64,000 bases of DNA from contig JALIHJ010000025.1 of NCBI GenBank assembly GCA_022984795.1, forward strand, positions 124,001-188,000, given 5' to 3'. The position numbers and the translations under genes were made by a program. Under the pieces are notes generated by a model, which was given only the letters and a program-made list of their open reading frames with translations, searched no databases and had not been told where the DNA came from. Below are positions 31,931 to 37,794 of this stretch, in pieces. The number at the start of each line of letters is the position of its first letter. Within the stretch, counting starts at the first letter, position 1. This DNA comes from Fabrea salina. Its lineage: Eukaryota > Ciliophora > Heterotrichea > Heterotrichida > Fabreidae.

Positions 31931-32842
31931 CTACCCTAGTTTTCCGCTGCAGAACTTGCAAAAGGGTCCAGTGGCACACGAAGTGCATAGTTGTTCGCAA
32001 ATACAAGCTTTTTCTAATTCCTTGTTTTTGAATTCTTTGCACTGTTTGCACAGTATACACTGAGCAATTGCTTGAGTCATTTCCTGACTGAGGGGTTTTG
32101 TGCATCCTGGACAAAAAGACTTGGAACTCATTATGCAGAAGTTGCAGCACTTGCCACAGTTGCAAATGCCCATAAGGTTTCCTTTTCCAAAGCAAACAAC
32201 ACATATTTCTGCAAAAAAGGATGCTTGTTCAATAGGAGTTCCTTTGTACCTAGCGTACTGGAAATAAGGCATCTTTTCCTTGAAAGCATCTAAAAAGCAA
32301 GTAAGTTCTTTAAGTGTAAACAAAGAAACAACTATCTTTCTAAGATTAGTTTTGTCTCTTTTGTTGACCCAATGGAAAAAAGCTTCGACGTGACAAACTG
32401 CTGCTATTTCAACAGGAAACCCAAAGATTCCACAAGAAATTCCAGGAATTCCTATAGAAGTGTAGCCTAGATTCGAAGCTAATTCCAAAGAGCCTATAAT
32501 TGCGTTGAATAGTTTTTGTCTTTCGTAAAAGTTTCCACTTCCATTAGACTTTGGACCAGCTGTGTGGATTATTCTTTTGAAATTAAGAGCTCCACCAGTG
32601 GTGTGTCTTGCTTCGCCTTCTCTTAAAGATCCTTTTTTCTTCACAAGGTCGTCGCATTCATCTTGGATTACCTTGCCTCCACTGTCAATGATTTGCCCAG
32701 CCAAACCTCCTAAGTTCTTAAGGTTCTCGTTTGCTGCGTTAACAATGGTGTCCACCTGGAGTTTAAGCACGCTTCCCATTCTTATCTCCAAAGTGTAGCC
32801 GTAAAGCTTCGCCTCAGCACAAAGCATGTTTTCGTTTTGCAT
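31931..32842 (-). CDS. Macro-domain (ADP-ribose-binding) protein with cysteine-rich zinc tail
   Basis: This protein has 303 residues. A macro domain spans ~12-185: DTIVNAANENLKNLGGLAGQI, IIHTAGP and GIPGISCGIFGFP, all ADP-ribose binding signatures. Residues ~215-303 hold about 20 cysteines in CxxC pairs (CVVC, CNCGKCCNFC, FCPGC, CILCKQC, CKFC), which look like stacked zinc modules. Macro domains read or remove ADP-ribose; the tail may act in ubiquitin or nucleic-acid binding (inference). The start codon lies 11 nt from the divergent RPC25 ATG. Confidence 0.9.
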   Translation of the reverse strand: MQNENMLCAEAKLYGYTLEIRMGSVLKLQVDTIVNAANENLKNLGGLAGQIIDSGGKVIQDECDDLVKKKGSLREGEARHTTGGALNFKRIIHTAGPKSNGSGNFYERQKLFNAIIGSLELASNLGYTSIGIPGISCGIFGFPVEIAAVCHVEAFFHWVNKRDKTNLRKIVVSLFTLKELTCFLDAFKEKMPYFQYARYKGTPIEQASFFAEICVVCFGKGNLMGICNCGKCCNFCIMSSKSFCPGCTKPLSQEMTQAIAQCILCKQCKEFKNKELEKACICEQLCTSCATGPFCKFCSGKLG

Positions 32843-32853
32843 TTATAGATATA

Positions 32854-33384
32854 ATGTTTATTTTGTACGAAGTCCTAACTAACGTTGACATCCCAGCAGA
32901 GTTTTTATCTGAAAACTTCAGAGAAGCTGTTACAGACAAAATTGAGTCACAGTATATTGGAAAGATCATTAAGGACGAAGGAGTGTGCATAGCTCTTTAC
33001 CAACTCCAAATACAAGAAACAGAAGTTAAAGAAGAAGGACTCAGTTGCAAGTGTCTGGGCTCTTTTGTAGTTTTCAAGCCTTTCTTGGGAGAAGTACTTA
33101 CAGGCAAAATAAAAGACTGCAACCACGAAGGTATTACAGTTTCTCTGAACTTCATAGACGCCTTTATTCCTTACTCCAACTTAGCAGAACCTTCTTCGTT
33201 TGACGAGCTCGAAAGAGTGTTTGTGTGGCACTACGAAGAAGCAGACCTGTTTTACGACATAGGAGAGACTGTAAGGTTTAAGGTAGTAGGTTACTGGCTG
33301 CCTGAAGAAGAGGGCATGCTGATCCAGTTGCTTGGCTCTGTGAACCAGGATGGACTAGGACTACTGCAGTGGTGGAACACTTAA
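32854..33384 (+). CDS. POLR3H: RNA polymerase III subunit RPC8/Rpc25
   Basis: This 176-residue protein matches POLR3H from end to end. It has an Rpb7-like N-terminal domain (MFILYEVLTNVDIP), then FVVFKPFLGEVLTGKIKDCNHEGITVSLNF of the S1-like OB domain, VWHYEEADLFYDIGETVRF, and the diagnostic end GLGLLQWW. With Rpc17 it forms the Pol III stalk used in initiation. It is shorter than human (204), mainly by losing the loop before the last strand. The next gene starts 5 nt after its stop. Confidence 0.95.
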   Translation: MFILYEVLTNVDIPAEFLSENFREAVTDKIESQYIGKIIKDEGVCIALYQLQIQETEVKEEGLSCKCLGSFVVFKPFLGEVLTGKIKDCNHEGITVSLNFIDAFIPYSNLAEPSSFDELERVFVWHYEEADLFYDIGETVRFKVVGYWLPEEEGMLIQLLGSVNQDGLGLLQWWNT

Positions 33385-33389
33385 TAAAT

Positions 33390-34583
33390 ATGAGTGCATA
33401 TGTTTTGTTCAGGTTTAAATGCGAGAAAGACAAAAACTCAGTTCCTATTGACGGAGCAGAAATAGGAGTAAGGCAACTTAGAGACCGCATAGCTGAAATG
33501 AAAGGCTTGAAAGACGACGGACTCCAAAAGAAAAAAGGCCCCAACCCCAACTACACCCTTATCATAATGGATGAAGCCAACCAAGAACTAGACGACGATA
33601 ACTTAGTTTCTGCAGGAACTACTGTAATCGTTAAGAGAGTCCAAACCTCTAGACCCACAACAATTCCTGCCACTGATTCAAAGCCTCAAAACGTAAGCCA
33701 GCCAACTACTCGAATTACTTCTGAGGATAGCATTGCTGCACAGCTGGCTAAACACATTCTGACAGGCTACATGCCTTCTTTTCTGGTTTGTCCTGTTTGT
33801 AAAAAGCGCTTCACTGACCCTTACATTAGTTCTTGCTGCAACTACACAGCTTGTCACAGTTGCTTTAAAGAAGATTCTTGTCCGAACTGCCAAAAACCCC
33901 CTAACCTTTTTCCAGACAGACAACTCCAGTGCTTTATGCTGAGCATCGAAGAAAAACTAGCTCAGCTCCACAGCCAGTCCTCAGGAATCATTGACGTTTT
34001 AAAGAACCCCAAGTACTTTTTAGTGCAAGTTTACGACCCAGACAAGCTAGAGTTGTCTTTGAACACTTCTGAATGGCCAGTGTCTCCTGACTACTCCTTT
34101 AAACTCAACACAGCTTACCAAGAAGGCCACAACGTAATAGTTATTTTCACAAACAGCGAAGCCAAAATGTTCCACGGATTCGGACTTATGATGTCTCCAG
34201 TTATGCACGACTACAATGAAACCTGGAAAACCAGAGACATCATAGGCATAAAGTGGCTCCGCAGAACAGACGTGTCTTTTTCCCACTTAGAAGAACTCCA
34301 ACACGCCATAAACAGAACCTCCTTAACTCAGCCTATAGAAGAAATACCAGTTAACACTGGGTTTGACCTTTGTTTGTTGTTAGAGCAAGGCGAGAAAAAA
34401 GACATTCCTTCTTACAAACCTCGAGAAATGGAACTCGAGGAACCCAAACGCGAAGAAGCACCCCTTAAAAGAAGCAGGTCTCCTGAAGAAAAAAGGAAAA
34501 AAAGTCCTAGACGCAAAAGTCCTCCTAAGTCCAAAAGGAGTCCAAGTCCTCAAAAAGATAAACCTAGAAAGTTAAGAAGATAG
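33390..34583 (+). CDS. DWNN-RING-YTH fusion protein (RBBP6/Mpe1-like with an m6A-reader domain)
   Basis: This protein has 397 residues. Residues 1-84 are a DWNN ubiquitin-like domain (VLFRFKCEKDKNSVPIDG, TTVIVKRV), the hallmark of RBBP6/Mpe1 in mRNA 3'-end processing. A RING-type domain follows at ~134-178 (CPVCKKRF...SCCNYTACHSCF...CPNC). I see no CCHC knuckle between them. Residues ~205-335 match a YTH domain: YFLVQVYD, SEWPVSPDYSFKLN, VIVIFTNSEAKMFHGFGLMMSP, WKTRDIIGIKW and TGFDLCLLLEQ. The Trp of SEW and the Trp of ETWK are candidate m6A-cage residues. The tail is RS/KSP-rich. The frame opens at a GTG 21 nt earlier, inside RPC25; ATG 33390 gives the proper DWNN start. Confidence 0.88.
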   Translation: MSAYVLFRFKCEKDKNSVPIDGAEIGVRQLRDRIAEMKGLKDDGLQKKKGPNPNYTLIIMDEANQELDDDNLVSAGTTVIVKRVQTSRPTTIPATDSKPQNVSQPTTRITSEDSIAAQLAKHILTGYMPSFLVCPVCKKRFTDPYISSCCNYTACHSCFKEDSCPNCQKPPNLFPDRQLQCFMLSIEEKLAQLHSQSSGIIDVLKNPKYFLVQVYDPDKLELSLNTSEWPVSPDYSFKLNTAYQEGHNVIVIFTNSEAKMFHGFGLMMSPVMHDYNETWKTRDIIGIKWLRRTDVSFSHLEELQHAINRTSLTQPIEEIPVNTGFDLCLLLEQGEKKDIPSYKPREMELEEPKREEAPLKRSRSPEEKRKKSPRRKSPPKSKRSPSPQKDKPRKLRR

Positions 34584-35462
34584 TTAGGCTTGCCAGTTGT
34601 CTCTTCGTTCTTCGTAGTCGGCAACCATTTCTTTCAGGTGCTTCAAGGCGTCCCTAGGGTTGAGGCCTTTGGGGCAAGTAGCCGTGCAAGAACCTATTTG
34701 GTAGCACTTCTTAACGTTGTAGTCTCCAGTGAGTTTACTAAGCCTTTCGTCAGTGGCTTCGTCTCTAGAGTCAATCACCCACCTGTAGGCCTGCATCAGC
34801 ACTGCAGGTCCCAAGTAGGCGTGTTGGTTCCACCAGTAAGAAGGACACAGAGTTGAGCAGCAAGCGCACAACACACACTCATAAAGGCCGTCTAGCTTCT
34901 TTCTGTCTTCTTGAGATTGGTAGTACTCGTTCTGGCCGGGTTCTTTGGGGGTGCTTCTCTTCAAGTAAGGGTCTATGGCCTTATACTGGTTGTAAAAGTT
35001 AGTCATGTCTACAACAAGGTCCTTAACAACAGGCATTCTTACAAGGGGACCAATAGTCATGGTTTCTTTGGGTGTAATGGGAGAAATACAAGCCAGAGAG
35101 TTGATTCCGTTAATGTGCATTGAACACGATCCGCAGATACCTTCGCGGCATGAACGCCTAAAAGTCAGAGTAGGGTCAATTTCGTTTTTGATCTTGATAA
35201 GGGCATCAAGCACCATAGGTCCGCAGTCATTAGTGTCGACCCAGTAAGACTGGACGAACCCTTGAGTGTCTTCATTTTCGGGGTTGTAGCGATGAACATG
35301 GAATTCAGTCATGGTTTCTTTGTTAATTTGGGAGTCGTCTTGGAACTGGTAAGCTTTGGTTCCCTGAGCCAGTCCCTTGGTCATCATTCTTAGGTCTGAC
35401 AGAAAACCTGTTGCAACGTCTGAAAATTGCCTTTTTAGCAAACGAGTGCTTCTGGCCAACAT
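34584..35462 (-). CDS. SDHB: Succinate dehydrogenase iron-sulfur subunit (complex II)
   Basis: This 292-residue protein begins with a mitochondrial presequence ([13 protein letters not shown]). The 2Fe-2S ligands are in [21 protein letters not shown]. The 4Fe-4S and 3Fe-4S ligands are in [16 protein letters not shown] and [14 protein letters not shown]. It passes electrons from SDHA to ubiquinone. A Gln/Asp-rich insertion separates the presequence from the ferredoxin domain. Its stop abuts the stop of the convergent fusion gene with no base between. Confidence 0.97.
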
Positions 35463-35952: not shown

Positions 35953-37794
35953 TTAGGACTTAACTTGTAACACCCTGCCGTCAGTTAGAATTTTTCTGAC
36001 TCTGCCGTCAGGGAACTCCCTTATTTTGGTGCCATCAGGTAGTATTGTATCTTTTTGTCCGTTGACGAAGTCAATGTACTTGATTCCTTGCACATCGACT
36101 TTTTGGACTGTGCCGTCGGGGAATATGGACTCTTCTTCTCCGTCAGCAAATATGCACTTCACAGTTCCGTCAGGAAAGCTGATTTCTTTAGTGCCGTCTG
36201 GGTAGTGCTTTTCAACTTGACCATTACTGAACTTGAACAGTTGGAGTCCGTCAGGGAAAGTAGTTTGCAAGGTGTCAGTTTCAGAAAAGAAGTAAACTAC
36301 TTTTCCGTCTGGGAAGGTTTGTTTGACGTCATTGTTGTTGAAGTGGACCTGTATGTATCCATCTGGGTAGATCTCTTTTTTGACTCCATTGTTGAAAACT
36401 ATTTCTCTGCGTCCGTCTTTGTAGAAGGTTTGGATTTTCCCGTCTTCGTCTACAACTTGGTTTTCGATTTCGTTGTCTTCAGAGTTTTCAGACATGCTTT
36501 CTTGGGCGCACTGAATTTGGGGAGCGAAGGCTTCAATAGGTTTTTGAGGTTCTGTGTTTGGAACTTGGTTAATGTAGCTTTCGAGTTCTTGGTTTCTTTC
36601 TGTTAGTTGTTTGATTTTGGTTTTTAGATTTTCAATGTGGGACCTGAGTTTGGTTTCTTTTTGTTTGCTTGCGTTTTGGACTTCCTGGATAGTTGCTTTG
36701 AGTTTGGCTATTTCTTCGCTTTCGGACTTTGTAGTTTGGGCTTTGAAGTTCCTTTCGTAGACTTTGCGTTCTTTTTTCATTTTCTGAATTTCTTCTTGTT
36801 TCCACTTTTCGAGGTTTTCTTTTTCTTTTTGTTTGTATTTTTGGAACTCTTCTGCTTCTTTGTTGAGTTTTTGTTTTTTCTCAGTTAGTTCTTTTTTGAG
36901 TTTTTTGAGTTTTTCGTTTTCTTGTTTGTACTTTTTGACTTCTAAGTTGAGGTCTTCATGGTTTTCAGATATCAAGTCAGGTATTTCTTCTTCGAAAAAG
37001 CTAGTTTCGGATTCAGTTCTTCTGGAGTTAATGGTGCTAGGTCTGCTTGCAGGGGGCTTTGAAACAGTTTTTTTTTGAGTGCATAGTTGTCCTTCTCCTC
37101 TTTTCAAAAAAGGTTTAGGTGTGGCTGGGGTTTTTTTCTCTTCTGGGAGGTTTACAATGATTTCTTCAGGTTCTGGGGAAGGGGCTTTGAATGTTTGTTT
37201 GGGTTCTTTAGACTCTTTAGGTTCTTTTGGTTCCTTAAATTTCTTTTTGGGGTTTTCAATGTTGGGTTTTGGCGCGTTGAGAGGCATTTTTTGGCTTTTC
37301 CTTTTGAGGAATTCCTTTTTCGGTTTCTCGGGAGGAGGGGTGTAAGAACTAGGTTGGGAGTTTTTTTTCATTTCTTCTTCAAGTAGTTCTTCAAAGGTTT
37401 TTCCGTTTCCAGCTACAGGAACTTCATCAGGGTCGTTTTTTTTGCGAATGGGTGGATTGGCACTTTTTGGGAGTTTAGGTTCAGGGTTGCTTCGAGGAGG
37501 CGAGAAATTCAAAACTTTAGGGTCTTCTTTAGCAGGGATTTGTGGTTTAGCCGAGTAGGCTTCTTGCAAAGGTTGGGCTCTAGGTTGAACGCTAGGTTGT
37601 TCTTCTAAGGGTTTTGCAGCTTGAGTTTCTAATTCAAAGTCTTCTTTAAACGACTGATTCAAGTTTTGAACACTAGACGAAGCAGAAAGACTGGACTGTT
37701 CATTCATACAAGAAGCCAGGAACCTAAGATAGTTAGCTTGCATTTCCATAAACTTAGTGGGGTCCATCATATAGTTCATATGTCCCGGGTCCAT
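35953..37794 (-). CDS. CENPJ: Centriole/basal-body protein SAS-4/CPAP (TCP10 G-box protein)
   Basis: This protein has 613 residues. The first ~270 are Pro/Lys-rich and disordered. Residues ~280-415 form a long coiled coil. Residues ~445-613 are about nine tandem beta-hairpin units of the TCP10/G-box type, each with a PDG or equivalent turn (YPDGYIQVHF, FPDGKVVYFF, YPDGTKEISF, FPDGTVKCIF). This domain binds STIL/Ana2 in CPAP/SAS-4, which sets centriolar microtubule length. It is shorter than human CPAP and no tubulin-binding PN2-3 segment is obvious. A small gene lies 16 nt upstream. Confidence 0.93.
   Translation of the reverse strand: MDPGHMNYMMDPTKFMEMQANYLRFLASCMNEQSSLSASSSVQNLNQSFKEDFELETQAAKPLEEQPSVQPRAQPLQEAYSAKPQIPAKEDPKVLNFSPPRSNPEPKLPKSANPPIRKKNDPDEVPVAGNGKTFEELLEEEMKKNSQPSSYTPPPEKPKKEFLKRKSQKMPLNAPKPNIENPKKKFKEPKEPKESKEPKQTFKAPSPEPEEIIVNLPEEKKTPATPKPFLKRGEGQLCTQKKTVSKPPASRPSTINSRRTESETSFFEEEIPDLISENHEDLNLEVKKYKQENEKLKKLKKELTEKKQKLNKEAEEFQKYKQKEKENLEKWKQEEIQKMKKERKVYERNFKAQTTKSESEEIAKLKATIQEVQNASKQKETKLRSHIENLKTKIKQLTERNQELESYINQVPNTEPQKPIEAFAPQIQCAQESMSENSEDNEIENQVVDEDGKIQTFYKDGRREIVFNNGVKKEIYPDGYIQVHFNNNDVKQTFPDGKVVYFFSETDTLQTTFPDGLQLFKFSNGQVEKHYPDGTKEISFPDGTVKCIFADGEEESIFPDGTVQKVDVQGIKYIDFVNGQKDTILPDGTKIREFPDGRVRKILTDGRVLQVKS

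Follow-up and report, generated by a model that had tools for sequence, protein, structure and literature searches.

The 64,000-nucleotide window analysed here, from the heterotrich ciliate Fabrea salina (contig JALIHJ010000025.1), contains at 33390..34583 on the forward strand a complete gene, in a single open frame, whose 397-amino acid product joins a DWNN domain, a RING, a YTH domain and an arginine/serine-rich (RS) tail, and which has one match in the genome (18,328,466 bases on 103 contigs searched). The ubiquitin-like DWNN domain spans residues 5-84 (33402..33641, + strand; Pfam PF08783, 1.2e-11); it matches Mpe1 at 2.4e-11, its PDB matches are solely to Mpe1/RBBP6, and its predicted structure superposes in Foldseek with target template modelling scores of 0.78 to the RBBP6 DWNN and 0.83 to Mpe1 in the Ysh1-Mpe1 complex. 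An RBBP6-like C4C4 RING follows at residues 134-167 (33789..33890, +), with all eight cysteines invariant in 10/10 aligned sequences; its best PDB match is the RBBP6 RING (0.0014), with BARD1 at 0.002, and generic Pfam RING models stay under cut-off. The YTH domain, residues 208-331 (34011..34382, +), is recognized both by its Pfam profile and by its predicted fold: YTHDC1 and AtCPSF30 are closest by profile, and the nearest folds include the N6-methyladenosine (m6A)-binding AtCPSF30 and Toxoplasma CPSF4-YTH. An AlphaFold2 model of the complete protein, built with 12 sequences, had a mean predicted local distance difference test score of 55 and poor confidence in the YTH; a YTH-only query with 22 sequences overcame this. 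Residues 337-397 (34398..34580, +) form a low-complexity tail rich in Arg, Ser and Pro, in which the motif KRSRSP or KRSRTP was seen by eye in nine of ten full-length rows. Pfam found no CPSF30-type CCCH fingers before the YTH, and NCBIfam, a prokaryote library, matched none of six proteins. The first-pass annotation, which had proposed a DWNN-RING-YTH protein on the Mpe1/RBBP6 arm of mRNA 3′-end processing, is thus borne out in its domains, including the identity of the YTH, and its assignment to cleavage and polyadenylation is likely by homology.

This architecture is shared by relatives. A single-sequence search returned five proteins, all five with both Pfam domains (DWNN and YTH), and a profile search yielded 12: 10 with DWNN and YTH together and two short DWNN-only pieces. 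One of the 10 two-domain relatives is a 99% near-copy; the other nine come from several sources, are 45-49% identical, and include proteins of Blepharisma stoltei (P0003) and Stentor coeruleus (SteCoe_12744, P0008). No further relative was found at E 0.01 among 7169 candidates that shared exact 5-residue words and fell within the length range, a selection by word match and length that does not imply absence of the fusion outside heterotrichs. Mean identity to the Fabrea protein is 55% for the DWNN, 50% for the RING and 50% for the YTH, in which 34 of 131 columns are invariant over 10 sequences; as the YTH is conserved about as well as the DWNN and RING, it appears to be under constraint rather than decaying. 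The joint between RING and YTH aligns across relatives with a gap of just 4 residues. The fusion is therefore real and conserved, and it occurs in heterotrichs. We found no published description of it in the literature excerpts available, and a literature search on Stentor with m6A and the YTH domain returned nothing. One relative, P0012, ends at 228 amino acids, just ahead of the first cage tryptophan; perhaps its species reads TGA as Trp, the standard code having been used for translation.

The protein is not a complete RBBP6. The description of its first half as RBBP6/Mpe1-like holds for the DWNN and the C4C4 RING and fails for the zinc knuckle: the CCHC pattern CX2CX4HX4C occurs in 0/10 fusion sequences, that of Fabrea included, and visual inspection of the 45-residue linker showed no recognizable pre-mRNA-sensing region (PSR). 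A six-frame genome search gave one DWNN candidate, the present gene, and six zf-CCHC_2 candidates with one match, in a second gene, L011, these counts being lower bounds as both profiles were silent in 14 control genomes. L011 (contig C37, L011:1411-2001, 196-residue frame) pairs a zinc knuckle (30.8 bits against a cut-off of 27) with an RBBP6-like RING and is without a DWNN; 22 of 47 positions of its RING are identical to the printed piece of the RBBP6 RING, compared with 15/49 for the fusion protein. After the knuckle lies a GIP-containing stretch, noticed by eye and without alignment, that resembles the Mpe1/RBBP6 motif with which the PSR of Mpe1 starts. No further RBBP6 was found in the genome; a second match for L011, L017, was set aside as a different RING protein (frame judged by eye). 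The simplest reading of these sequences would be duplication of an ancestral Mpe1, after which each copy lost the part retained by the other and one of them gained a YTH; a division of Mpe1/RBBP6 over two genes in heterotrichs is moderately supported. The ubiquitin-like domain of Mpe1 binds Ysh1, Mpe1 without its zinc knuckle no longer bound to the polymerase module, and every domain is reported as important for function (PMC9380774).

We next consider the YTH pocket. According to PMC6112328, the cage of YTHDC1 is formed by W377, W428 and L439, and N363, N367 and S378 contact the base. In the Fabrea protein, W229 (34074..34076, +) aligns with W377, and W279 (34224..34226, +), in a shortened loop, is a possible stand-in for W428. 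Among 10 sequences, the W377 position is aromatic throughout (W in eight; Y in P0003 of Blepharisma and the similar P0010), and the W428 position holds Trp in three (the Fabrea protein, P0003 and P0010) and is deleted in seven, Stentor included. The L439 position is T, S, N or Q and never L; the N367 position is K, T, Q, S or A, with N/D in 0/10; the S378 position is P, D or E; and the K361 and N363 positions are Q and Y, respectively, in 10/10. By alignment the hydrophobic cage of W377, W428 and L439 is incomplete, the Fabrea protein having the first tryptophan and possibly the second, and the changes at W428, L439, N367 and S378 indicate that a canonical m6A pocket is not maintained across the family. 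The candidate cage tryptophans of the first-pass annotation are accordingly present in Fabrea, and the m6A reader drawn from them finds an eroded pocket in the family. With both tryptophans kept, m6A binding by the Fabrea YTH is possible, and the same may hold for the Blepharisma fusion. Because the pocket residues vary across the family, however, the fusion YTH is most likely an RNA- or partner-binding fold without a strict need for m6A, comparable to the YTH protein Mmi1 of fission yeast, which binds unmethylated RNA and in which N367 is altered as well. To our knowledge Mmi1 has no DWNN or RING; the fusion protein differs from it in having both, and would share with it a putative m6A-independent RNA binding. 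The Tyr at the N363 position is presumably the residue also found in YTHDF proteins. Overall, m6A reading by the fusion YTH is weakly supported.

The fusion is one of three YTH matches in the genome. L001 (5e-32) is YTHDF-like, a class assigned by eye. L003 (contig C8, L003:1402-2286, 294-residue frame) is a CPSF30-YTH gene, whose CCCH fingers match human CPSF4 at 6.4e-25 and whose YTH matches AtCPSF30 at 2.9e-15, Pfam CCCH models remaining under cut-off. A search with L003 returned 12 proteins, all 12 with a YTH, including one 99% copy and Stentor SteCoe_13024, annotated in UniRef as a cleavage and polyadenylation factor. The first-pass annotation had placed the YTH on RBBP6 instead of CPSF30, and this contrast does not survive: L003 has both CPSF30-like fingers and a YTH, as does the Stentor protein. 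In the alignment of CPSF30-YTH proteins the W377 position is kept in 10/11, and the W428 place is without Trp in 11/11 (F in 8/11, by eye), so the pocket of the CPSF30 arm is altered too. Two further CCCH proteins are related to L003. L020 (contig C70, L020:1348-2049) combines five CCCH fingers with two CCHC knuckles, the layout of human CPSF4, and has no YTH; L019 is a three-finger protein that is less CPSF4-like. Against the printed pieces of human CPSF4, L003 is identical at 44 of 96 positions (score 247) and L020 at 47 of 127 (score 254). The check proposed earlier, that CPSF30 in this species should lack a YTH, thus holds for L020 and fails for L003; either may be the orthologue. As with RBBP6, there may be two chains of CPSF30, one with a YTH and the other with knuckles.

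Comparison with apicomplexans places the fusion in a wider setting. Like RBBP6 and Mpe1, the ciliate protein has an N-terminal DWNN and an RBBP6-like RING, the resemblance from which a 3′-end role is inferred; unlike them, it lacks the knuckle, which lies with a RING in L011, and has acquired a YTH and an RS tail. It also differs from plant CPSF30-L and Toxoplasma CPSF4/YTH1 in that its YTH is joined to a different subunit. In Toxoplasma, tagged YTH2 co-purified RBBP6 (6 and 8 peptides), CFIm25 (2 and 3) and an RRM protein, whereas YTH1, the CPSF30-YTH, pulled down CPSF and CSTF subunits with 0 peptides of RBBP6 (PMC8354455). In both systems the RBBP6 arm has a YTH of its own, separate from that of CPSF30-YTH; Toxoplasma has a stand-alone YTH2 and a separate RBBP6 polypeptide, whereas heterotrichs have one chain, and the two YTH domains are possible orthologues. 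By analogy, the heterotrich fusion appears to unite two proteins that associate with each other in a related phylum, which supports it independently. In turn, a YTH-RBBP6 partnership for which one Toxoplasma pull-down was found in the literature examined is supported by a second YTH fusion, in organisms that keep the first, the YTH-CPSF30 known in plants and apicomplexans.

We consider it probable, if well short of certain, that the gene encodes the DWNN half of a divided Mpe1/RBBP6 which, with its YTH and RS tail, acts in mRNA 3′-end cleavage and polyadenylation in heterotrich ciliates; the processing role itself is well supported by homology, and the YTH-bearing half of a split Mpe1 describes the protein better than an RBBP6 with an m6A reader does. 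The DWNN would dock on the nuclease CPSF73/Ysh1, the expected partner, for which a CPSF73-like gene is present (L012; CPSF73-100_C, 5.6e-28); the L011 protein, with its zinc knuckle, PSR-like stretch and RING, would, on the polymerase module, sense the poly(A) signal; the two proteins might come together, perhaps through their RINGs; and the YTH could provide an extra contact with pre-mRNA near the cleavage site. A more elaborate model is rather unlikely as a whole: in it, the DWNN-RING-YTH half, kept on the nuclease, and the zinc knuckle-PSR-RING half, kept on the poly(A)-signal module, would rejoin through their RINGs only on the correct pre-mRNA, CPSF30 and RBBP6 would each exist as a YTH-bearing and a knuckle-bearing chain, and a dedicated YTH module with two-point RNA recognition would license cleavage between genes a few bases apart. 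Several points weigh against even the simpler reading. The RBBP6 match of the fusion's RING is weak and barely ahead of BARD1, that of L011 is nearer RBBP6, and L011 may be the truer RBBP6 and the fusion a side branch. L011 is known from one genome only, in which the DWNN and knuckle counts are minimum values. The cage equivalences in the shortened loop come from alignment, and comparisons of MT-A70 proteins settled no METTL3/METTL14 pair. Finally, if the fusion YTH were an orthologue of Plasmodium PfYTH.2, m6A reading would be the ancestral state; PfYTH.2 binds m6A in vitro, retains the key residues and is placed nearest YTHDF/ECT2 (PMC8092261), a placement that speaks against such orthology.

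One may postulate instead that the YTH does read m6A and thereby anchors the RBBP6 arm of the cleavage machinery to methylated pre-mRNA, a possibility we regard as doubtful. W229 and W279 are present in the Fabrea protein, the Tyr at the N363 position is universal, the closest folds include the two m6A-binding proteins named above, and PfYTH.2 binds m6A (PMC8092261), which counts if the domains are orthologous. Candidate writers also exist, as the genome holds four MT-A70 loci (L005, L006, L007 and L008) and two WTAP-like loci above cut-off (58.7 and 49.5 bits against 35; one control genome gave a signal below it). L007 leans by about 10 bits towards METTL3 (126.7, against 116.8 to the MTA1-type entry), and L005 leans to neither (129.0 to METTL3, 130.8 to the MTA1-type entry); the two methyltransferases are related to each other, and both bear C-terminal ZZ zinc fingers. 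The PDB entry closest to L006 (1.6e-81) is labelled an MT-a70 family protein and mRNA m(6)A methyltransferase, and we take it to be Tetrahymena MTA1, the ciliate DNA N6-methyladenine enzyme; the weak MT-A70 locus L008 has no relative found in the PDB. A genome search for VIRMA was silent, as were its controls, and is thus uninformative. The reader hypothesis is weakened by the erosion of the pocket across the family, though it is not refuted in Fabrea salina.

Quite improbable, in our view, is that the protein is a RING-type E3 ubiquitin ligase adaptor, with putative E3 activity, whose YTH fold binds protein or RNA outside 3′-end processing. Its RING, with eight invariant cysteines, is about equally near BARD1 and RBBP6, and the more orthodox RBBP6 knuckle and RING of L011 could alone fill the 3′-end role; yet the DWNN matches solely Mpe1/RBBP6 in the PDB and is the sole one found in the genome, all domains of Mpe1 are reported to matter (PMC9380774), and YTH2 associates with RBBP6 in Toxoplasma (PMC8354455). 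An artefact, in which adjacent genes were fused by misassembly or by a missed intron or stop, might be suspected where neighbouring genes often lie a few bases apart, as in this window. It is scarcely credible, however, given that 9 other proteins, drawn from several sources and 45-49% identical, share the architecture, as does the 99% copy, and that the RING-YTH joint aligns with only the 4-residue gap; we therefore reject misassembly or chance as the origin of the fusion. If the divided Mpe1/RBBP6 is the correct reading, heterotrichs would offer a natural dissection of Mpe1, with nuclease-binding and RNA-sensing parts on separate chains, and a test case for a possible shift of a YTH domain away from m6A reading towards a different function.

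The gene lies in a densely packed setting. Upstream, the RNA polymerase III subunit Rpc25 (32854..33384, +; Pfam RNA_pol_Rbc25, 5.9e-25) ends 5 bp before the ATG of the fusion gene; downstream, a convergent gene (34584..35462, −; Fer2_3 3.5e-33 and Fer4 matches), which probably encodes the succinate dehydrogenase iron-sulphur subunit, abuts it with 0 bp between the two stops, so that the choice of 3′ end must work tightly here. Among 49 frames with 120 codons or more, a rough set that ignores introns, the 26 tandem pairs have a median gap of 16 bp and the 11 convergent pairs one of 5 bp, and four convergent frame pairs overlap (window 1-64000). With genes nearly without spacers, 3′-end formation would have to be exact or else overlap neighbours. 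Short introns as a heterotrich mark were unconvincing: of the 6 candidates, 14-18 bases long, 2 measure 15 bases. Nearby, a macro domain protein (31931-32842, −; 1.4e-28) has a cysteine-rich C-terminal half without a Pfam name, and a CPAP/Tcp10-type centriole protein (35953-37794, −; Tcp10_C repeats, 4.2e-36) suits a ciliated host.
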